A program made the translations under genes and the position numbers. The notes below the pieces were generated by a model. It was not told the DNA's origin. It saw only the letters and a program-made list of their open reading frames with translations, and searched no databases. A stretch of 42,532 bases of DNA from Clostridia bacterium (GTDB lineage Bacteria > Bacillota > Clostridia > Christensenellales > Aristaeellaceae): positions 1 through 42,532 of the forward strand of contig JAFTWV010000023.1 of the NCBI GenBank assembly GCA_017465155.1. The letters run 5' to 3'. Positions 202 to 9,899 of this stretch are shown piece after piece (the first letter of the stretch is position 1; every line of letters begins with the position of its first letter).

Positions 202-1464
202 TTATTCCAGTTCGCAGGGGCAGGCAACGCAGCCCTTGACAGCGGACGCAGCAGCCACGGCGGGGGAGGCCAGGATGACCTCGCTCTTCACATGGCCCAT
301 GCGGCCCACGAAGTTGCGGTTGGTGGTGGCGACGGCGCGTTCGCCCTCGCACATGCAGCCCATGTGTCCGCCCAGGCAGGGGCCGCAGGTGGGCGTGCTG
401 ACGGCACAGCCGGCTTCGATAAAGATCTGCGTATAACCCTGCTTGATGCACTCCATGTAGATATCCTGCGTGGCGGGGATGACGATGCAGCGCACGCCGT
501 CGGCGACCTTGCGGCCCTTGAGGATCTCCGCCGCGATGCGCATATCGGAGATGCGGCCGTTGGTGCAGGAGCCGATGACCACCTGGTCGATGGGCAGGCC
601 TGCGACCTGATCGACGGTCTTGGTGTTGGAGGGAAGGTGGGGCAGGGACACGGTGGGCTTGAGAGCGGAGAGGTCGATCTCGACAACCTGCTCGTACTCT
701 GCGTCCTCGTCAGCCTCGTAGGCCTTCCACTCGCGGTTAACGCGGCCGGTAACATATTCGATGGTCTTCTCGTCCACGGGGAAGATGCCGTTCTTGCCGC
801 CGGCCTCGATGGCCATGTTGGCGATGGTGAAGCGATCGTCCATGGTGAGCTCGGCCACGCCGGGGCCGGTGAACTCGATGGACTTGTACAGCGCGCCGTC
901 CACGCCGATCAGGCCGATCAGGTGGAGGATGACGTCCTTGCCGGAGACCCACTTGCCCATCTTGCCGGTGAGAACCACCTTGATGGCGCTGGGCACCTTG
1001 AACCAGTTCTCGCCCGCGGCCATACCGGCGGCCATGTCGGTAGAACCCACGCCGGTGGAGAAGGCACCGATCGCGCCGTAGGTGCAGGTGTGGCTGTCCG
1101 CGCCGATGATGACTTCGCCCGGCGCGACGATGCCCTTTTCCGGCAGCAGCGCGTGCTCGATGCCCACGTTGCCTACGTCGTAGAAGTGGGTGATATGAAA
1201 CCGGCGGGCGAAATCGCGGGCGGTCTTGCACAGCTGGGCGGACTTGATGTCCTTGCAGGGGGTGTAATGATCCAGCACGATCGCGATCTTGTCCTTGTCA
1301 AACACGCGGTCGAAGCCGGCCTTGTCAAACACGTCCACAGCCACGGGGGTGGTCACGTCGTTGCCGAGAACCAGATCCAGCTTGGCTTCGATCAGGTCGC
1401 CCGCCTTCACGGAGGGGAGCCCTGCATGAGCGGCGAGGATCTTCTGCGTCATGGTCATGCCCAT
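202..1464 (-). CDS. leuC: 3-isopropylmalate dehydratase large subunit
   Basis: This is the aconitase-family large subunit of isopropylmalate isomerase and carries the [4Fe-4S] cluster. It is 420 residues from the start [10 protein letters not shown]. Visible motifs are the [14 protein letters not shown] active-site stretch, [10 protein letters not shown] with one cluster cysteine, and [13 protein letters not shown] with the other two. The reading frame stays open upstream to 1629. I start at 1464 because GAAGG lies 8-9 bases upstream and the family N-terminus begins there. The upstream extension is translation through an interspersed repeat. It lies 14 bases before leuD and follows leuA after a 216-base gap. 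At about 420 residues it belongs to the shorter LeuC/homoaconitase-like subgroup, so its exact substrate rests on the leuA-leuD context. Confidence 0.95.
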
Positions 1465-1514
1465 AATGTTTTCCTTCTTTCTGATGAGATGGTCGTCATT
1501 CATCGGAATGAGGA

Positions 1515-1660
1515 GCTTCGCGCCTGCGGGCGCGACCAAAGGCCGGAGCCCGGCTGGCGGCTTTCCGTCATCCAACATTGCTTGAAGCTTTGCCTTCGGC
1601 AACTCCTCACGGGGGAGCCGCTTCTGCACGATGCCCTTTGGAAACCTTCGGTGCCCCTAC
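1515..1660 (-). repeat. Hairpin-rich interspersed repeat, copy 1 (leuA-leuC gap)
   Basis: The gap between leuA and leuC contains a GC-rich stretch that resembles 5810-5945 in the ilvD-ilvC gap. Both copies share, in order on the minus strand, a GCCGAAGGC(A/G)AAGC hairpin, CAAG-AATGTT and a GCGCCCGCAGGCGC hairpin. Both copies stay open in one minus-strand frame with related text (PKAKLQAML versus PKAKRQGML, then PAGL versus PAGG). This open frame is what makes leuC appear to have a 54-residue N-terminal extension. I treat it as a noncoding, structured repeat. It could affect mRNA stability or relative expression of leuC. Confidence 0.6.
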
Positions 1661-1680
1661 GGTTGTAGGTGATATGTACC

Positions 1681-3234
1681 TCACCGGGAGGGATTGGTGC
1701 GCTGACGCTTGGCGGCGTAGGCGCGGAGCTTGTTCATGGCACGCAGGTAGGCGCGGACAGAAGCCTCGACGATGTTGGTGTGCAGGCCGCGGCCGGTGAA
1801 GGTGCGGTCGTCGCAGGTGAGCTTGACGGTGACGCCGCCCATGGTGTCCTTACCGGGAGAAATACCGGCGATGTTGTACACGTCGAAGGTGTGCTCGACG
1901 GGGCGCATGATGCGGTTAATGGCCTCGAAGGCAGCGTCCACCGGACCGTCGCCGGAGCAGGCCTCCTCAAAGATCTGGCCATCGAGCGACAGGCGCACCA
2001 CGGAGGTGGAGGTGGTCATGTTGGAGGTATGTACCGCGAACCACTCCAGCTTGTAGCCGTCCACGTCCTCCTCGTCGTTGGCGGCAGCCTGATGGGTCAC
2101 AATGGCAACAAGATCCTCGTTGGTGACGGACTTCTTCTTGTCGCAGAGCACCTTGAATTCCTCAAAGCAGCGCTGCAGCTCGGCGTCGTCCAGCTCGTAG
2201 CCCATTTCCTTCAGGCGGGAGGCCAGTGCGTGCTTACCGCTGTGCTTACCCAGCACGATGTTGTCGATTACCACGCCCACGCTCTCGGGGGTGAGGATCT
2301 CATAGGTCTTCTTGTTGGCCAGAACGCCGTGCTGGTGGATGCCGCTCTCGTGGCGGAAGGCGTTCACGCCCACGATGGGTTTGTTCAGCGGCGCATTCTG
2401 GCCGATGATGTTGTATACGGTCTTGGAGGCGCGGAAGATCTGTGTTGTGTCAATTCGGCAATCGTGCTCGGTGAAGATATCCGGGCGGGTATGCATTGCC
2501 ATGACGACTTCTTCCAGCGCAGTGTTGCCCGCGCGCTCGCCCAGACCGTTGATGGTGCATTCGATCTGGCGCGCACCGCCCAGGACGCCGGCGAGGGAGT
2601 TGGCTACGGCCATACCCAGATCATTGTGGCAGTGCACGGAGAACTCAACCTTGTCGGAATTCGGCACACCTGCGATCACAGCTTCGATCATCCTGCGCAT
2701 TTCATCCGGCGTGGTGTAGCCAGTGGTGTCGGGCAGGTTAATGACGGTTGCGCCTGCCTTGATGGCTGCATCGACAACACGGATCAGGAAGTCCGTATCG
2801 GAGCGGGTCGCATCCTCGCAGGAGAACTCGATGTTTGACACGTACTTCTTTGCGTGAGCAACCATCTCGGAGGTGCGCGCCAGCACCTGATCAGGGGTCA
2901 TCTTCAGTTTGTACTCCATATGGAGGGGACTGGTGGCGATAAACAGGTGAATACGGGGATCGGCAGCGTCCTTCACCGCGTCCCATGCGCAGTCGATATC
3001 CTTGACCGTCGCGCGGGCGAGGGAAGCCACGGAGCATTCCTTCACCGTGCGGGCGATGGTCTGCACGGACTCGAAGTCACCGGGGGAGGCAATGGCAAAG
3101 CCAGCCTCGATCACGTCGACCTTCAGGCGCTCCAGGCAGCGCGCCACCTCGATTTTTTCCTTCAGATTCATGGAACAGCCGGGGGACTGCTCGCCGTCGC
3201 GCAGCGTCGTGTCAAAAATCTTGATCTGGCTCAT
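1681..3234 (-). CDS. leuA: 2-isopropylmalate synthase
   Basis: This condenses acetyl-CoA with 2-oxoisovalerate, the first committed step of leucine synthesis. It is 517 residues, the usual length of the full LeuA form. The N-terminal TIM barrel has FDTTLRDGEQSPG, the metal-binding HCHND motif (about residue 200) and GLGERAGN. The C-terminal regulatory (LeuA allosteric) domain includes STSVVRLSLDGQ and GRGLHTNIVEAS. The start ATG at 3234 has AGGAGG about 9 bases upstream. It lies 25 bases after the SGNH hydrolase gene, inside the ilv-leu operon. The intact C-terminal domain suggests leucine feedback control at the enzyme level, in addition to leader control. Homocitrate or citramalate synthases are relatives, but leuC and leuD follow, which supports LeuA. 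Confidence 0.96.
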   Translation of the reverse strand: MSQIKIFDTTLRDGEQSPGCSMNLKEKIEVARCLERLKVDVIEAGFAIASPGDFESVQTIARTVKECSVASLARATVKDIDCAWDAVKDAADPRIHLFIATSPLHMEYKLKMTPDQVLARTSEMVAHAKKYVSNIEFSCEDATRSDTDFLIRVVDAAIKAGATVINLPDTTGYTTPDEMRRMIEAVIAGVPNSDKVEFSVHCHNDLGMAVANSLAGVLGGARQIECTINGLGERAGNTALEEVVMAMHTRPDIFTEHDCRIDTTQIFRASKTVYNIIGQNAPLNKPIVGVNAFRHESGIHQHGVLANKKTYEILTPESVGVVIDNIVLGKHSGKHALASRLKEMGYELDDAELQRCFEEFKVLCDKKKSVTNEDLVAIVTHQAAANDEEDVDGYKLEWFAVHTSNMTTSTSVVRLSLDGQIFEEACSGDGPVDAAFEAINRIMRPVEHTFDVYNIAGISPGKDTMGGVTVKLTCDDRTFTGRGLHTNIVEASVRAYLRAMNKLRAYAAKRQRTNPSR

Positions 3235-3259
3235 GCTGGTTTTACCTCCTGTATTATTT

Positions 3260-3898
3260 TCAAAGGGATTCGATGAATTTTGCGATCTTGTTTGTCAGGA
3301 TGACGTGGCCTGCGTCGTTGGGGTGCAGACCGTCAGGCATGTACATGTCCTTCATCACGGGGACGGCGGGCTGTACGCCATATTGTGCATACAGGTCAAG
3401 CACGGGCAGGGAGTAGTACTCCGCCGCCGCGCGGATCTCGGCCACATAGTCTGCCAGCACCTTGCCGTGCATGTTGGGGATAGCCTCGGTGTCGCGGTGC
3501 AGGGGCGTGATGACGACGAACTGCGCCTTCGGGTACTTCGTCAGCAGGGACGTGTACAGCTCATGCAGTGCGCCGCAGAAGGTGTCCGCTGTGCGGTCGG
3601 AAGGCTTGCCGAAGGGGGCGTCGCCATGGCCGAAATCATTTGTTCCGCCAAAGACGACCACCACGTCCGCATCTGCGTTCATCTTTGCCACGCGGGAGGG
3701 AAAATCCAGATCGTGCCGGGGGTCACAGGAGGGCGCGTTTTGATGGGCAAGGCGCGTGCCGCCGATGCCGTAATTGCGGGTGACAGCGCCATATTCCGCA
3801 GCGATCCTGTCCGAAAAGCGGGCCGCCTCGCAGGAGCAACCGTGCCCCTCTGTGATGGAATCTCCCAGAAAGTTGATCTTCAGTCCCTTCAGGTTCAT
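3260..3898 (-). CDS. SGNH/GDSL-family hydrolase inside the ilv-leu operon
   Basis: This is a 212-residue SGNH-fold esterase-like protein. Block I is FLGDSITEG with nucleophile Ser14, the Asn of block III is in FGGTND (around residue 87), and block V is DGLHPND with the Asp-x-x-His pair near residues 195-198. There is no signal peptide, so it is probably cytoplasmic. The start at 3898 has GGAGAGG just upstream. Gaps of 34 bases to ilvD and 25 bases to leuA place it within the operon. The family includes esterases, lipases, acyl-CoA thioesterases and carbohydrate deacetylases, and the sequence does not reveal the substrate. A link to branched-chain acyl or keto-acid metabolism is only suggested by position. 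Confidence 0.85.
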   Translation of the reverse strand: MNLKGLKINFLGDSITEGHGCSCEAARFSDRIAAEYGAVTRNYGIGGTRLAHQNAPSCDPRHDLDFPSRVAKMNADADVVVVFGGTNDFGHGDAPFGKPSDRTADTFCGALHELYTSLLTKYPKAQFVVITPLHRDTEAIPNMHGKVLADYVAEIRAAAEYYSLPVLDLYAQYGVQPAVPVMKDMYMPDGLHPNDAGHVILTNKIAKFIESL

Positions 3899-3932
3899 AA
3901 CAGCCTCTCCATACTAAATTTAGCATTAAGAA

Positions 3933-5594
3933 TTATTCGAGAATTGCGCCCTTGTCTGCGCTGCTGACCAGCTTTGCATACCGTGCGAGGTAGCCGGTCT
4001 TGACCTTCGGCTCGGGGCAGACCCATGCCTTACGGCGCTCGGCCAGCACGTCGTCTGCGACCTTCAGCTCAATGGAGCAGGCAGGGATGTCGATGGAGAT
4101 CAGGTCGCCCTCTTCCACCAGCGCGATCAGGCCGCCTGCAGCCGCCTCGGGGCTGACATGGCCGATGGATGCGCCGCGAGTTGCACCGGAGAAGCGGCCG
4201 TCGGTCAGAAGCGCTACAGATTCGCCCAGACCCATGCCGCAGATGGCGGAGGTGGGGTTGAGCATCTCACGCATACCAGGGCCGCCCTTGGGGCCCTCGT
4301 AGCGGATGACCACCACGTCGCCGGGGACGATCTTGCGGGCGTAGATGGCAGAGATGGCTTCCTCCTCGCTGTCAAAGACGCGGGCGGGGCCTTCGTGCTT
4401 CATCATTTCAGGCGCGACGGCACTCTGCTTGACAACGCAGCCGTCCTTGGCCAGATTGCCCTTCAGCACGGCGATGCCACCGTTGGCGCTGTAGGGATTG
4501 TCGATGGGACGGATGATGCTCGTGTCGCGGTTGACGACCTTTTCCAGGTTCTCCGCCATGGTTTTGCCGGTGACGGTCAGGACAGAGGTGTCCAGCAGGT
4601 TCTTCTTGGTCAGCTCCTTCATTACGGCGCTGACGCCGCCCGCGCGGTCCAGATCCTCCATGAAGGTGTCGCCGGCGGGAGCCAGGTGGCACAGGTTGGG
4701 AGTCTGGGCGGAGATGGCGTTGGCGTGATCCAGATCGATGGTCACACCGGCCTCATGGGCGATGGCGGGCAGATGCAGCATCGTATTGGTGGAGCAGCCC
4801 AGCGCCATATCGACGGTCTCGGCGTTGTTGAAGGCAGCGGGGGTCATGATGTCGCGGGGGCGGATGTTCTTCTCCACCAGCTGCATCACCTGCATACCGG
4901 CGTGCTTGGCCAGACGAATGCGGGCGGACAGGGGAGCGGGAACGGTGCCGTTGCCCGGCAGCGCCATACCCAGCGCCTCGCACAGGCAGTTCATGGAGTT
5001 GGCGGTGTACATGCCGGAGCAGCTGCCGCAGGAGGGGCAGGCATTCTCTTCGTAGTCGCGCACGCCGCATTCGTCCAGCGTACCGGCCTTGTAGGCGCCC
5101 ACAGCCTCGAACATGTGAGAGAGGCAGGTGCGGCGGCCGTCGCTCAGGTGACCGGCCAGCATCGGGCCGCCGGAACAGAAGATCGTCGGGATGTTCAGAC
5201 GCGCCGCAGCCATCAGCAGGCCCGGGACGTTCTTGTCGCAGTTGGGCACCATAACCAGGCCGTCGAACTGGTGAGCAATGGCCATGGCCTCGGTGGAATC
5301 GGCGATCAGATCACGGGTGACGAGGGAATACTTCATGCCCACATGGCCCATGGCGATGCCGTCGCAGACAGCGATGGCCGGGAACATGACGGGGGTGCCG
5401 CCAGCGGCGCGCACGCCAGACTTCACAGCCTCGGTGATCTTGTCGAGGTTCATGTGGCCGGGAACGATCTCGTTATAGGAGGACACCACGCCGATCAGCG
5501 GGCGGGACAGCTCCTCGTCGGTGTAGCCCAGGGCATACAGCAGGCTGCGGTTCGGGGCGCGCTCCACGCCGAGCTTGACGTTGTTGGAATTCAT
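3933..5594 (-). CDS. ilvD: Dihydroxy-acid dehydratase
   Basis: This dehydrates 2,3-dihydroxy-isovalerate or 2,3-dihydroxy-3-methylvalerate to the matching keto acids, the third step shared by valine and isoleucine synthesis. It is 553 residues, normal for IlvD. Visible motifs are [13 protein letters not shown] (about 75-87), [10 protein letters not shown] with Cys119, [15 protein letters not shown] (Cys186, 189, 192) that ligates the Fe-S cluster, and the C-terminal [20 protein letters not shown]. The ATG at 5594 has AAGGAGG upstream. A gap of 378 bases with a hairpin-rich repeat separates it from ilvC, which may lower or uncouple its expression. Confidence 0.96.
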
Positions 5595-5772
5595 AAAATG
5601 GCCTCCTTAATATAGTGAGGTGAATGTTTGTGTGGCACTGCGCGGCGGTCATGCCCGTCGCTGCGGTGATGAAAGGCAGGACGGGGGATGTCCTGCTGTG
5701 ATGGCGGTGGGGGGAGGGGCGGAGGAAGTTAGTCGACTCTGTTGACTTGTCCTTTTGAGTTGACCGGACTGT

Positions 5773-5945
5773 TTGAACGATCGGAGATCGTTCAAGGGCG
5801 TCATGGGGCTTTTGCGCCTGCGGGCGCGGAGGCCTCCGGCGGGGAAGGGGCCTCCGTTTAACATTCCTTGTCGCTTCGCCTTCGGCGAAGTCCCCACTGG
5901 GGACACGCTCCCACGGAATGCCCCTTCCATCCCCCGTAAGGGCCG
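5773..5945 (-). repeat. Hairpin-rich interspersed repeat, copy 2 (ilvD-ilvC gap)
   Basis: The 378-base gap between ilvC and ilvD holds no convincing gene. It contains a row of inverted repeats: a perfect 10-bp stem with a 3-base loop at 5773-5795 (TTGAACGATC and its complement), GCGCCTGCGGGCGC at 5814-5827, a GGAGGCC/GGCCTCC pair, CTTCGCCTTCGGCGAAG, GTCCCCACTGGGGAC, and TAAGGGCCGTCGGCCCTTA next to the ilvC stop. Its central part resembles copy 1 at 1515-1660. No T-run follows any hairpin in the direction of transcription, so it is not an obvious intrinsic terminator. The rest of the gap (5595-5772) shows only the ilvD ribosome binding site. Confidence 0.65.
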
Positions 5946-5972
5946 TCGGCCCTTAACCCGTTTTGTCGTCCC

Positions 5973-6992
5973 TTAGTTGGAGGCGTTGTCCAGGTTGTTG
6001 TCGTTCTTCCAAAGCATGTTGGAGCGCAGCTGCTCGCCGACGATCTCCATCTCGTGCTTGGCCAGGATGCCGCGGCGGCTGTTGAAATAGCAGCGGCCGG
6101 TCTGGTTCTCGTTGATCCAGTTGCGGGCGAAGGTGCCGTCCTGAATATCGTTCAGCACAGCCTTCATGTTGGCCTTGGTCTGCTCGTAGGGGATCACGCG
6201 CGGGCCGGAAACGTACTCGCCGTATTCCGCAGTGTCGGAGATGGAGTAGTTCATCGCAGCCACGCCGCCCTTGTTGATCAGGTCGATGATCAGCTTCATC
6301 TCGTGGATGCACTCGAAGTAGGCGTTCTCGGGCTGGTAACCGGCCTCGACCAGAGTCTCGAAGCCGCAGCGCATCAGCTCGACCACGCCGCCGCACAGCA
6401 CGGCCTGCTCGCCGAACAGGTCAGTCTCGGTCTCCTCGTTCATCGTGGTCTCCATGATGCCCGCGCGGGCGCCGCCGATACCGGCGATGTAGGCCAGCGC
6501 GATGTCCCAGGCATGGCCGGTAGCGTCCTGCTCAACGGCGACCAGAGAGGGCACGCCCTTGCCGACGACGTACTGGCTGCGAACGGTGTGGCCGGGGCCC
6601 TTGGGGGCTGCCATGAACACGTCCACGCCGGCGGGAGGATCAATCAGCTTGTAGCGGATGTTGAAGCCGTGAGCGAACGCGATGGCCTTGCCCTCGGTCA
6701 GGTAGGGGCGGATGTCCTTGTTGAACATGGCAGCCTGCTTCTCGTCATTGATCAGGATCATGATGACGTCGGCCTTCTGGGTCATTTCCGGCACGGTCAT
6801 GACCTCAAAGCCGTCCTTCTCAGCCACGGGCCAGCTCTTGCCTTCCTTGCGCAGGCCAATGATAACGTTGACGCCGGAGTCGCGCAGGTTCAGCGCGTGG
6901 GCATGGCCCTGAGAACCGTAGCCGACGATGCCGACTACCTTGCCGTCCAGCTTGCCGAGGTCACAATCCTTCTCATAGTACATTTTTGCCAT
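5973..6992 (-). CDS. ilvC: Ketol-acid reductoisomerase (class I)
   Basis: This is an NAD(P)H-dependent enzyme that isomerises and reduces acetolactate and acetohydroxybutyrate. It is 339 residues from [10 protein letters not shown], the usual class I length. It has the Rossmann [17 protein letters not shown] motif (about residues 26-42), the PKGPGHTVR loop and the knotted C-terminal domain with metal ligands ([12 protein letters not shown] and [13 protein letters not shown]). I place the start at 6992, with AAGGAG 9 bases upstream. This start overlaps the end of ilvN by 20 bases in another frame, which suggests translational coupling. A longer open frame upstream is only shadow of ilvN. Confidence 0.96.
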
Positions 6993-7524
6993 AGTCGTAT
7001 TCTCCTTTAACTTTAGTCTGTTCGTCAATGGTGAACTGTCCGCGTTCCAGTGCGACCATGCCGGTACGCACCAGCTCGAGGATTCCAAACTCCTTAAGGA
7101 GGTTCTGGATGGCTTCAGCCTTGCTTTCATCGCCGATGACAGCAAGGGTCAGGGAGGCAACCGACACGTCGATGATGGACGAGCGGAAGATGTTGGCGAT
7201 CTGGATGACCTCGTTGCGGCTCTCGGCGGTGTTCGCCATGACCTTGATCAGCACCAGCTCGCGGCGAATGGCATGATCCGGTACCAGCACCTTGACGGAG
7301 TGCACGCAGATCAGCTTGCGCAGCTGGGAGGCGATCAGGCGGGTCTGATCCTCGTTCGCCTTGATTTCGATGGTAATGCGGGAAACCTGGGGGTCGTCGG
7401 TCGTGCCCACGGCGAGGGACTCAATATTGTAGCCCTTGCCGGAGAAAAGGCGCGTCACGCGGGAAAGGACGCCGGCCTCGTTGTCGACCAGCACGGCCAG
7501 GGTCTGTCGTTCGATGTTCGCCAT
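6973..7524 (-). CDS. ilvN: Acetolactate synthase regulatory (small) subunit
   Basis: This is the regulatory partner of IlvB, which gives valine feedback sensitivity and activates the catalytic subunit. It is 183 residues. The N-terminal ACT domain begins [32 protein letters not shown], written here only to show the glycine-rich ligand loop around residues 16-31. A C-terminal domain follows ([12 protein letters not shown] near residues 155-167). The ATG at 7524 has AAAGGAG upstream. There are 17 bases between the ilvB stop and this start, and the 3' end overlaps ilvC by 20 bases. The length is that of the long small-subunit type (ilvN/ilvH). Confidence 0.95.
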
Positions 7525-7541
7525 TTCGGTCAGCTCCTTTC

Positions 7542-9257
7542 TCAGGAATTCAGCATGAAGTCGGTGATGTGGCTGCCGCCGCCGACCATGGGACGAACCT
7601 TCTCGTCCATGTCGATCACGCAGTCAATGACATAGCCGTGGCCGCAGGAAAGGGCTTCCTTGAGCGCCTTTTCCAGCTCCTCCACGTTGGTCACGCGGGC
7701 GCCGGAGAGGCCATAGGCCTCAGCCAGCTTCACAAAGTCGGGAGAGCGGTCGAGGTTTGTGGCAGCGTAGTGCTTGTCGTAAATCAGCGTCTGCCACTGA
7801 CGGACCATGCCCAGCACGCCGTTGTTGAAAACGACGTTGATGATAGGAAGGTTGTAATACTGCTCGGTAGCCAGCTCATGGCAGTTCATGCGGAAGCAGC
7901 CGTCGCCGGTGACGTGCAATACGCACTTGTCGGGATGAGAAATCTGTGCGCCGATGGCAGCGCCCAGGCCGAAGCCCATCGTGCCGAAGCCGCCGGAGGT
8001 CAGCAGCTGGCCGGGATAATCAAAGTGGAAGTGCTGGATGGCCCACATCTGATGCTGCCCCACGTCGGTGGCGACGATGGTATCCTGCGGCAGAATCTTT
8101 GCGATGGCAGTCAGCACCTGCTGAGGCGTCAGATGATCGGAGGCCTCGTCGTATTCCGTCTCCGTCTTGAAAGAGAAGACGTACTTCATCCAGTCCTCAT
8201 GCTTGGCGGGACGGACGCGCTCCAGCAGCAGCTCCAGCACGCGCTTTGCGTCGCCGATGATGTGATGATCGGTCTGCACGTTCTTGTTGATCTCGCTGCG
8301 GTCGATGTCGATCTGCACGATCTTTGCGTTGCGGGCGAAGGTGGAGGGCTTGAGCGCCACGCGGTCGGAGAAACGGCAGCCGATGGCGATCAGCAGGTCA
8401 CAGGCGTCCACTGCCATGTTTGAGGCCTGGGAGCCGTGCATGCCGATCATGCCGGTGACGTGCCTGTCACGACCCTGCAGGCCGCCGGCGCCCATCAGGG
8501 TCACAGCGGCGGGCGCATCAATGCGGTTCACCAGCTCGTTCAGCTCCTGATGCGCGCGGGAACGGACAACGCCGCCGCCGCAGATGATCATGGGCTTCTT
8601 GCTCTCCGCGATCATTTCGACCAGCTTTTCGATGTCGTTATGATCGGGTTCGGGGGCCTTGAAGTCCTCGGAAGCGCGGGACATCAGTGCGCCCAGACGG
8701 CCCGCAGTACCATGCACGGAGCGGGCGAGGGATTCATACTCGGCCTTCTCGGCGGTTACGTTCTTGGGAATGTCGATGAGCACCGGGCCCGGACGGCCGC
8801 TGCGGGCGATGGCGAAGGCCTCACGCACGGTGTCAGCCAGATCCTTCACGTCGCGCACCAGATAGTTGCACTTGGTGATGGGCATCGTCACGCCGGTGAT
8901 ATCGACCTCCTGGAAGGAATCCTTGCCCAGCAGGGCCGTACCTACGTTGCAGGTGATGCAGACGATGGGAGCGGAATCCATGTAAGCGGTGGCGATGCCG
9001 GTGACGAGGTTCGTACAGCCGGGGCCGGAGGTGGCGAAGCATACGCCGACCTTGCCGGTGGAGCGGGCATAGCCGTCCGCGGCGTGGCAGGCGCCCTGCT
9101 CATGGGCGGTCAGAATGTGCTTCATCATGCCGTTGTTTTCGTAGTTGTACAGCTCGTCGTACACGTTCAGAATCGTGCCGCCGGGGTAGCCGAAAATGGT
9201 ATCGACGCCCTGCTCGACGAGGCATTCCATCAGGATCTTTGCACCGGTCAATTGCAT
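7542..9257 (-). CDS. ilvB: Acetolactate synthase catalytic (large) subunit
   Basis: This is a thiamine-diphosphate and FAD enzyme that makes acetolactate or acetohydroxybutyrate from pyruvate, the first common step of the pathway. It is 571 residues from MQLTGAKILMECLVEQGVDT. Motifs are FGYPGGTILNVYDEL, the catalytic-Glu region HEQGACHAADGYAR (about 48-61), the FAD domain FSDRVALKP, and the ThDP motif GDGCFRMNCHEL-(x)-NNGVLGMVRQWQ. A GTG at 9284 would extend it by nine codons, but AGGAGG sits 7 bases before the ATG at 9257, so I use that. It is the first structural gene after the leader-peptide attenuator. Confidence 0.96.
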   Translation of the reverse strand: MQLTGAKILMECLVEQGVDTIFGYPGGTILNVYDELYNYENNGMMKHILTAHEQGACHAADGYARSTGKVGVCFATSGPGCTNLVTGIATAYMDSAPIVCITCNVGTALLGKDSFQEVDITGVTMPITKCNYLVRDVKDLADTVREAFAIARSGRPGPVLIDIPKNVTAEKAEYESLARSVHGTAGRLGALMSRASEDFKAPEPDHNDIEKLVEMIAESKKPMIICGGGVVRSRAHQELNELVNRIDAPAAVTLMGAGGLQGRDRHVTGMIGMHGSQASNMAVDACDLLIAIGCRFSDRVALKPSTFARNAKIVQIDIDRSEINKNVQTDHHIIGDAKRVLELLLERVRPAKHEDWMKYVFSFKTETEYDEASDHLTPQQVLTAIAKILPQDTIVATDVGQHQMWAIQHFHFDYPGQLLTSGGFGTMGFGLGAAIGAQISHPDKCVLHVTGDGCFRMNCHELATEQYYNLPIINVVFNNGVLGMVRQWQTLIYDKHYAATNLDRSPDFVKLAEAYGLSGARVTNVEELEKALKEALSCGHGYVIDCVIDMDEKVRPMVGGGSHITDFMLNS

Positions 9258-9348: not shown

Positions 9349-9385
9349 AAAAAGCCTGCGGTCTAAAAGTTAGACTGCAGGCTTT
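9349..9385 (-). terminator. Attenuator terminator of the ilv-leu operon
   Basis: Read on the minus strand this is a 16-bp stem with one mismatch (5' arm AAAGCCTGCAGTCTAA, loop CTT) followed by TTTTTG. It lies between the leader peptide stop and the ilvB ribosome binding site, so it is positioned to end transcription before ilvB. Its 5' arm and loop also match a segment inside the leader cistron (see 9489-9507), so it can be opened by a competing structure. Confidence 0.9.
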
Positions 9386-9463
9386 GCCGGAACGTGTTGG
9401 CTGCATGTGCTGATCAGGCGCCGGTCATGCGGCTGCGTATTGAACAGCGGTGACCGGGACCGG

Positions 9464-9586
9464 TCAGCACATATAGCAGTGCTGGCAGTGCAGAGCATAA
9501 CTTTTAGCGGCGTGCGTGGACGGAATAAGTCGTACCAGCAGGCTAATTAGCACCTGTACTACCAGCAGCGCGAAGACAGCGTTCAT
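9464..9586 (-). CDS. ilv operon leader peptide (40 aa, Val/Leu/Ile-rich)
   Basis: The leader cistron starts at ATG 9586 with GGAG 7 bases upstream and ends at TGA 9464. Residues 4-18 read VFALLVVQVLISLLV. Thirteen of residues 4 to 21 are Val, Leu or Ile. Several use codons uncommon in the neighbouring genes (GTA four times, CTA once, ATT twice), while CTG, GTG and ATC dominate elsewhere here. After this cluster comes PSTHAAKSYALHCQHC and a short tail. The peptide is probably not functional as a protein. Its translation senses charged branched-chain tRNAs, and stalling in codons 4-21 would leave the downstream antiterminator segment (codons about 26-33) free. No T-box motif is visible in this leader. 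Confidence 0.88.
   Translation of the reverse strand: MNAVFALLVVQVLISLLVRLIPSTHAAKSYALHCQHCYMC
9489..9507 (-). promoter_or_regulatory. Antiterminator segment within the leader cistron
   Basis: On the minus strand this reads CTAAAAGTTATGCTCTGCA. The first ten bases are the exact complement of the terminator's arm and loop at 9363-9372, and the last five (CTGCA) pair with TGCAG at 9375-9379 after a small bulge. It overlaps leader codons about 26-33, just downstream of the Val/Leu/Ile cluster. A ribosome that finishes the leader would cover it and let the terminator form. A ribosome stalled in the cluster would leave it free to pair and prevent the terminator. The pairing is seen in the sequence. 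The mechanism follows classical amino acid operon attenuation and is inferred. Confidence 0.8.
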
Positions 9587-9646
9587 CGTTACTCTCCATC
9601 ATCAATCATGGAATCCCGCGGTGGGGAAACCGTTATGTTCGTGAAA

Positions 9647-9675
9647 ATTGTATCACAAGAAAATGGGCATGTCAA
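9647..9675 (-). promoter_or_regulatory. Sigma-A promoter of the ilv-leu operon
   Basis: Minus strand TTGACA (9675-9670), a 17-base spacer and TACAAT (9652-9647) preceded by TGA, giving an extended -10. The expected start is near 9640, about 50 bases before the leader peptide ATG. It lies back to back with the plus-strand tRNA promoter. Confidence 0.9.
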
Positions 9676-9766: not shown

Positions 9767-9795
9767 TTGCCAAATTGGACGGAGTATGCTATAAT
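9767..9795 (+). promoter_or_regulatory. Promoter of tRNA-Ser
   Basis: TTGCCA at 9767-9772, a 17-base spacer and a consensus TATAAT at 9790-9795. The TATAAT ends 12 bases before the mature tRNA 5' end at 9808, so the transcript needs little 5' trimming. Confidence 0.85.
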
Positions 9796-9807: not shown

Positions 9808-9893
9808 GGAGCGGTATCGAAGCGGTCATAACGGGGCTGACTCGAAATCAGTTTGTCTTCACGGACACGTGGGTTCGAATCCCACCCGCTCCG
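9808..9893 (+). tRNA. tRNA-Ser (anticodon CGA)
   Basis: This is an 86-nt class II tRNA. The acceptor stem is GGAGCGG paired with CCGCTCC, with discriminator G at 9893. The anticodon arm is CTGA-CTCGAAA-TCAG, giving anticodon CGA that reads UCG. There is a long variable arm (TTTGTC...GACAC) typical of serine tRNAs, and a T arm GTGGG-TTCGAAT-CCCAC. The 3' CCA is not encoded (the next bases are CAC), so it must be added by CCA transferase. Confidence 0.97.
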
Positions 9894-9899
9894 CACAAC

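Follow-up and report, generated by a model that had tools for sequence, protein, structure and literature searches.

The window analysed here, a stretch of 42,532 nt from a Clostridia genome of 68.5% completeness (G000), carries an ilv-leu gene cluster on its minus strand (202..9257). The first structural gene, ilvB (7542..9257), which encodes the N, M and C domains of the Pfam TPP_enzyme families, is followed on the same strand by ilvN (6973-7524), ilvC (5973-about 6996), ilvD (3933-5594), leuA (1681-3234) and an aconitase-family gene of the leuC type (202-1629), with a gene for a GDSL/SGNH hydrolase (3260-3898, also minus strand) inserted between ilvD and leuA. From this order and the common strand, we infer that the genes from ilvB to leuC are co-transcribed. 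A tRNA-Ser (CGA) gene (9808-9894, plus strand) lies divergent from the operon, and a promoter-like site (9767-9795) is located near it. The nearest named relatives of G000 include Clostridia MAGs from roe deer rectum and sheep rectum, and from the titles of such relatives we infer that the source organism is an uncultured gut member of the Clostridia.

Upstream of ilvB, on the same strand, a sigma-70-type promoter (9647..9675) consists of TTGACA and TACAAT separated by 17 nt, with a TG before the -10 element and 11 of 12 matches, so that the near-perfect promoter pointed out in a sequence-only reading of this DNA is borne out; by eye, a similar promoter precedes the leaders of all five congeners described below. 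It is followed by a Shine-Dalgarno motif, GGAG (9594..9597), positioned 7 nt before the ATG of a 40-codon leader cistron (9464..9586), MNAVFALLVVQVLISLLVRLIPSTHAAKSYALHCQHCYMC. Codons 4-21 (9524..9577), which end 15 nt before the core of the antiterminator arm, include 13 Val/Leu/Ile codons (4, 7, 8, 9, 10, 12, 13, 14, 16, 17, 18, 20 and 21), among them three GTA and one CTA, confirming what the same reading had described, namely, a 40-codon cistron with its own ribosome binding site and 13 branched-chain codons, GTA and CTA included. A six-frame search of the window gives 408 ORFs of 20-75 aa, of which the leader is the richest in Val, Leu and Ile (13 in 18, runner-up 10), and the binomial chance of at least 13 in 18 is 3e-5 at 25% Val/Leu/Ile, a value that refers to a single ORF and is uncorrected. 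The arrangement expected of an attenuator, a short ORF with many codons for the end products ahead of a biosynthetic operon, is thus found here, with a frame kept in the congeners and predicted translation.

Between the leader and ilvB lies, as had been claimed, a predicted intrinsic terminator (9349..9385, minus strand), with a stem at 9385-9351 of about -20 kcal/mol and a U-tract; a simple terminator scan did not include it among its listed terminators. The antiterminator arm (9489..9507, minus strand) is located within the leader cistron and is complementary to a terminator segment (9363..9379, minus strand) that spans the loop, together with part of the left shoulder and the first bases of the right one. 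The reported 10 + 5 bp complementarity is exact: 9507-9498 pairs with 9372-9363 (10 bp) and 9493-9489 with 9379-9375 (5 bp). The leader RNA folds with a z-score of -5.8, and none of 200 shuffles was equally good. Folding also predicts a protector hairpin (9476..9571, minus strand), absent from the earlier observations, in which 9558-9543 pairs with the arm and 9567-9559 with the sequence right after it; the complementary segments CTGCTGG and CCAGCA are shared by the window and four of the five congeners.

Within the genus, an ilvB match at E <= 1e-100 was obtained in 8 of 18 genomes (G000 included), the remaining ten, many of them incomplete, being uninformative. In five congeners, ilvB is 86-89% identical to that of the window, and all five carry the leader peptide with the CTG CTG GTA CGA CTT run, the arm and the terminator, in one case (L012) with the leader stop codon inside the arm. 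The loss of leader frame or pairing in close relatives, which the sequence-only reading had named as grounds for abandoning attenuation, was therefore not seen.

For a broader comparison, a search of the family for ilvB listed 103 places, of which 93 were used (L066 was without a gene start), and 80 named loci, some from the same genomes, were added, giving a total of 172 upstream regions, 140 of them distinct and 138 long enough for scanning. A script flagged a Val/Leu/Ile-rich ORF plus a terminator in 56 of the 138; 42 of these were kept and, together with L021 and L029, which fall below the ORF threshold but possess the arm, form a core set of 44 loci. The 14 flagged loci that were dropped are L119, which is a T-box, L025, L042, L055, L062 and L071, taken as presumed false positives, and L094-L101, which are branched-chain leaders of other designs. 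In L096, L097, L099 and L101 of the latter group, leaders such as MRRHALNNLLLIDLLGIRIIVDVSRF lie ~100-150 nt upstream of ilvB, with the branched-chain codons inside the terminator stem; these are possibly single-hairpin attenuators comparable to those of actinobacterial ilvB. Arms were located with a position-weight matrix, five of them (L011, L014, L145, L179 and L180) being set by hand, and a free complementarity search, which often chose another segment, was excluded from the statistics. A covariance model, R1, proved to be a poor survey tool, with matches in 6 of the 297 genomes of the order (11 candidates scored per genome): it recovered the locus of G000 and those of the five congeners, whose sequences are among those from which it was built, and one R1 match that was examined (L183) was a terminator matching on both strands with no ilv leader nearby.

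Across the 44 curated ilvB leaders, the arm and the terminator co-vary, the check that the earlier reading had suggested for 9489-9507 and 9363-9379. The mean duplex energy of each arm with its own terminator was -17.5 kcal/mol vs -13.5 kcal/mol for swapped partners, a value equalled in none of 20,000 permutations, likewise in none for the 26 non-redundant loci, and in none for the 39 and 21 loci that remain without the hand-set arms. Two control leader segments paired no better than swapped ones (19,128 and 16,996 of 20,000 permutations reached the observed value; 43 loci). In a per-pair alignment of 39 of the 44 loci, with five near-duplicates omitted, 84% of cells pair, and two-sided changes occur at all 11 arm-terminator pairs, a number matched in none of 500 shuffles. 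One of these pairs is GC in 18 loci, AU in 15 and unpaired in 5, and never shows a one-sided change. Sliding the partners by one column reduced pairing to 46% or 57%, a comparison in which the antiterminator, derived from the same sequences, is favoured over the slid versions. The terminator stem also co-varies, and part of the signal is shared because some terminator bases belong to both helices; the permutations and shuffles ignore relatedness, an effect that the non-redundant subset merely lessens. An antiterminator mutually exclusive with the terminator and supported by co-variation is, accordingly, present in this set.

These data bear on one alternative, a chance assembly of a hydrophobic ORF near a terminator. 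In the free complementarity search, shuffles frequently did as well (10 of 100 in the window, where another segment was chosen), as such an assembly would predict, but when the arm itself was considered, none of 100 shuffles was as good in the window and at most 5 of 100 in 36 of the 44 loci (in the other 8, more than 5 of 100 shuffled arms paired equally well). Considering also the conservation of the leader and the arm-terminator co-variation, we assign chance next to no probability.

The distance from the last branched-chain cluster to the arm core has a median of 15 nt (range 3-24; 44 loci), close to the reach set by the footprint of a stalled ribosome. Of the 44 arms, 34 share the reading frame of the leader and 10 do not (L014, L023, L144, L145, L147, L151, L154, L175, L179 and L180); in four of the latter loci (L023, L144, L147 and L151), the leader stop precedes the arm. 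The earlier proposal that the arm forms part of the leader cistron itself thus holds for the window and for most of the set, but an in-frame coding arm is evidently inessential; since the arm is kept where the frame is not, selection acts on it as RNA. The same variation weighs against a functional hydrophobic micro-protein preceding an unrelated promoter-proximal terminator. The hydrophobic 5' half of the peptide and the frame conserved in the congeners are compatible with that explanation, whereas the retention of arm nucleotides without the reading frame in the 10 loci, the widely variable lengths and C-termini of the leaders and the co-variation of the arm with the terminator speak against it, rendering it very improbable.

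T-box control, in which tRNA is sensed directly, without a leader peptide, is classically associated with Bacillota. A tRNA- or metabolite-sensing riboswitch upstream of ilvB, either a T-box or a ppGpp-type element, had to be weighed here because T-box leaders precede ilvB in relatives, including two of the same genus. At the locus, however, Rfam yielded no match at the gathering score (its one match in the window is the tRNA at 9808), and the five matches obtained at E <= 10 were at chance level, with no T-box or riboswitch among them, in agreement with the earlier remark that no T-box features are visible. The same T-box model (RF00230) finds ilvB T-boxes over the cut-off of 93 bits in L015, L088 and L089 and just under it in L016, and a T-box motif occurs in 31 of the 138 ilvB upstream regions but in none of the 44 core leaders; a riboswitch at this position is, consequently, extremely unlikely. 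Of nine named loci with the motif that were given to Rfam, six were supported (not L122, L130 and L140), and at a looser threshold all eight motif loci given were.

Both types of sensor are found beyond this set. In a sample of the class, ilvB was detected at E <= 1e-120 in 180 of 291 genomes, and among the 89 upstream regions examined, which are the better-scoring part of the list, the script assigned 10 T-box motifs, 5 leaders with terminators, 20 terminators only and 54 regions with neither, so that T-boxes and leader peptides are scattered through the class sample. Rfam confirmed six of the eight T-box motifs given (L192, L222, L239, L257, L259 and L269, not L221 and L242; L270 and L278 were not given). 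The five leaders (L252, L263, L264, L268 and L274) are rich in branched-chain codons and are followed by terminators before ilvB; by eye, they are unlike the sequence of the window, and in L264 a tRNA lies near the ilvB leader. G000 itself has 10 T-box matches at E <= 0.001, two of which (metG and pheS) exceed the cut-off. The genes after eight of them are metG, pheS, serS, trpS, ileS, one for a PLP-dependent aminotransferase-like protein, proS and leuS, the ileS and proS calls being fragments under the curated score. Given the matches before ileS (78.8 bits) and leuS (58.5 bits), both below the Rfam cut-off, T-box and leader-peptide sensors may coexist in one cell.

Codon usage sets the leaders apart from the genes that they precede. 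When the 44 loci are pooled, CTA accounts for 57 of 209 leader Leu codons (27%) vs 0.9% in ilvB of the same loci, GTA for 37% vs 14% of Val, CTT for 26% vs 16% of Leu and ATT for 62% vs 22% of Ile, whereas TTA (2.4 vs 2.7%) and ATA (13.9 vs 12.7%) are unenriched, which argues against plain AT-richness. Fisher tests of this bias take no account of relatedness and use ilvB counts obtained by rounding fractions. Theory developed for E. coli identifies CUA as the best Leu control codon and UUA and UUG as poor ones, and CUA is a control codon of the enterobacterial leu leader (PMC1183508), as it would be in the family of the window. Enrichment as strong as that of CTA is seen for one Arg codon, CGA, which represents 28 of 46 leader Arg codons vs 2.8% in the pooled ilvB genes and is present in 20 of the 44 leaders and in 14 of the 26 non-redundant ones. 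In the window, a CGA codon (9530-9532) is retained amid the branched-chain codons, in the stretch GTACGACTTAT. This enrichment is not explained by a branched-chain sensor. In the operon of the window, CTA makes up 4.8% of Leu, GTA 7.8% of Val and CGA 12.5% of Arg codons, CTA and CGA being less rare there than in the pooled ilvB genes.

The comparative evidence, namely, the conserved leader, the co-variation of the pairing, the spacing and the codon bias, supports the earlier proposal of leader-peptide attenuation of an ilv-leu operon without a T-box, and the folding predictions address the number of states involved. With a modelled ribosome footprint of 15 nt on each side of the A site, which is an assumption, and with kinetics and Rho outside the model, the median number of antiterminator pairs in the 44 loci was 0.07 without a ribosome, 16.6 when a ribosome stalls at the last branched-chain codon of the cluster and 0.0 with a ribosome at the stop codon. 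Stalling added more than 3 antiterminator pairs in 40 of the 44 loci, and fewer than 3 were left at the stop codon in 41; shuffled leaders matched the observed pairing total in 63 of 880 trials. In L011, L014 and L021, the model antiterminator forms even without a ribosome, and in L029, L030 and L033, it is weak during stalling (0.3, 4.9 and 7.1 pairs, respectively).

The sequence-only reading had favoured a compact two-state switch, in which terminator and antiterminator act alone and the translating or terminating ribosome masks the arm directly. Several features of the set agree with this design: the terminating ribosome would cover part or all of the arm in many loci (up to 28 nt), the stop codon lies in or before the arm in L012 and in the four early-stop loci listed above, and support for the protector is weak across the 44 loci, only 4 of which have at most 5 of 100 shuffles as good (2 of 100 in the window). 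In the swap test of region 1 against the arm, 9 of 20,000 permutations reached the observed protector value in the 44 loci and 61 of 20,000 in the 26. In the window, however, the arm is predicted to be held in the protector both without a ribosome (18.9 expected pairs) and with a ribosome at the stop codon (18.6), where no arm base is masked, so that the two-state model misfits this locus; furthermore, at least 8 protector pairs are predicted without a ribosome in 32 of the 44 loci, a count made without a shuffle control. We thus consider the two-state switch unlikely, and the ilvB leader is very probably a ribosome-mediated transcription attenuator of the classical three-state kind, with comparison arguing for the attenuator and modelled folding for the three states.

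In such a three-state attenuator, a shortage of charged tRNA for Val, Leu or Ile would stall the ribosome on codons 4-21, where it would cover the leader to about the arm. The freed arm could then pair with the emerging left shoulder, the loop and the first right-shoulder bases of the terminator, blocking termination and allowing transcription of the operon. With sufficient amino acids, the ribosome would reach the stop codon, the protector would, in the window, re-form behind it and hold the arm, and the terminator would form; in the early-stop loci, the terminating ribosome itself would cover the arm, with the same outcome. Without translation, the protector is expected to form as well, leaving the operon off.

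The distribution of the attenuator within the genus adds an evolutionary dimension. The leader attenuator precedes ilvB in six species (L009-L014), and a T-box or near-T-box in two: in G013 (L015) the T-box scores 99.9 bits, and in G007, which has two ilvB copies (L016 and L017), the first copy follows a T-box-like leader of 90.3 bits and the region upstream of the second has no Rfam match at E <= 0.01. Hence, within one family, and even one genus, the region upstream of ilvB may hold a T-box, a leader peptide or neither. The ilvB genes of G007 and G013 are 49-52% identical to that of the window, which is nearer to its Clostridium viride homologue (73%, L154) than to those of L015 and L016 (about 50%), a pattern that suggests transfer of the ilvB operon along with its regulator. 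The C. viride locus belongs to a cultured strain, DSM 6836, and its arm is among the weaker ones of the set. Tentatively, we envisage an undescribed family of ilvB attenuators in gut Clostridia, with a conserved arm near GTGCTRAAAGTTATGCC matching the terminator loop, which may follow one ilvB-operon lineage and have replaced the T-box within one genus, and one branch of which keeps the CGA arginine codon amid the branched-chain codons, where it perhaps sets the pace of the ribosome; as a whole, this scenario is possible rather than probable. Because sensors are mixed within one genus and the T-box motif is missing from the 44 core leaders, sensor exchange can be studied directly, and the 44 natural variants, some of which have a changed frame or stop early, allow the roles of RNA and peptide to be told apart without mutagenesis.

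A literature search, with few subscription papers in its scope, returned no description of this ilvB element in Clostridia. Leader-peptide attenuation of ilv genes is known elsewhere, including in Bacillota, so that the element of the window belongs to a known kind: it is a conserved leader-peptide attenuator in a lineage for which no description was found. Reports or predictions of such attenuation exist for enterobacteria, S. aureus, Lactococcus, Streptococcus and Corynebacterium (PMC5794164, PMC10272879) and, in the case of ilvB, for other Actinobacteria (PMC1262725), and further ilvB, ilvD and uORF motifs are described from Corynebacterium, Leptospira, Veillonella and others (PMC11109978, PMC8632094). 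The earlier statement that Bacillota mostly use T-boxes for these genes, accordingly, needs qualifying, ilv leader attenuation in this phylum having already been reported (PMC5794164).

The S. aureus ilvD attenuator resembles the window in phylum, ilv-leu operon, a short peptide rich in branched-chain residues, a terminator and the lack of a T-box; it differs in its 26-aa Leu-rich peptide, in its location upstream of ilvD and in a predicted antiterminator that pairs with the U-tract and leaves the terminator stem intact (PMC5794164). The ilvB-II uORF of the Corynebacterium ilvBNC operon is likewise an Ile/Leu/Val-rich uORF before ilvB, with a terminator stem, predicted ribosome stalling and an antiterminator sequence inside the uORF-spanned region (PMC10272879). 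Compared by that description, it belongs to another phylum, its uORF usually has 15-17 codons rather than 40, and a region of its P1 loop engages the right terminator shoulder (PMC10272879), whereas in the window the pairing of the arm takes in the left shoulder and the loop and extends into the start of the right shoulder. Candidate ilvB leaders of Actinobacteria are, like that of the window, short ORFs that contain stretches of Ile, Val and Leu codons and are accompanied by terminators, but these stretches overlap the terminator hairpin itself, the text examined describes no separate antiterminator arm for ilvB, and codon changes in S. coelicolor were without effect (PMC1262725). The T-box leaders (RF00230) of relatives precede the same gene, respond to a related amino acid supply input and likewise act ahead of a downstream terminator. 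The enterobacterial ilv and leu attenuators follow a three-state logic with protector, antiterminator and terminator, like the states predicted for the window.
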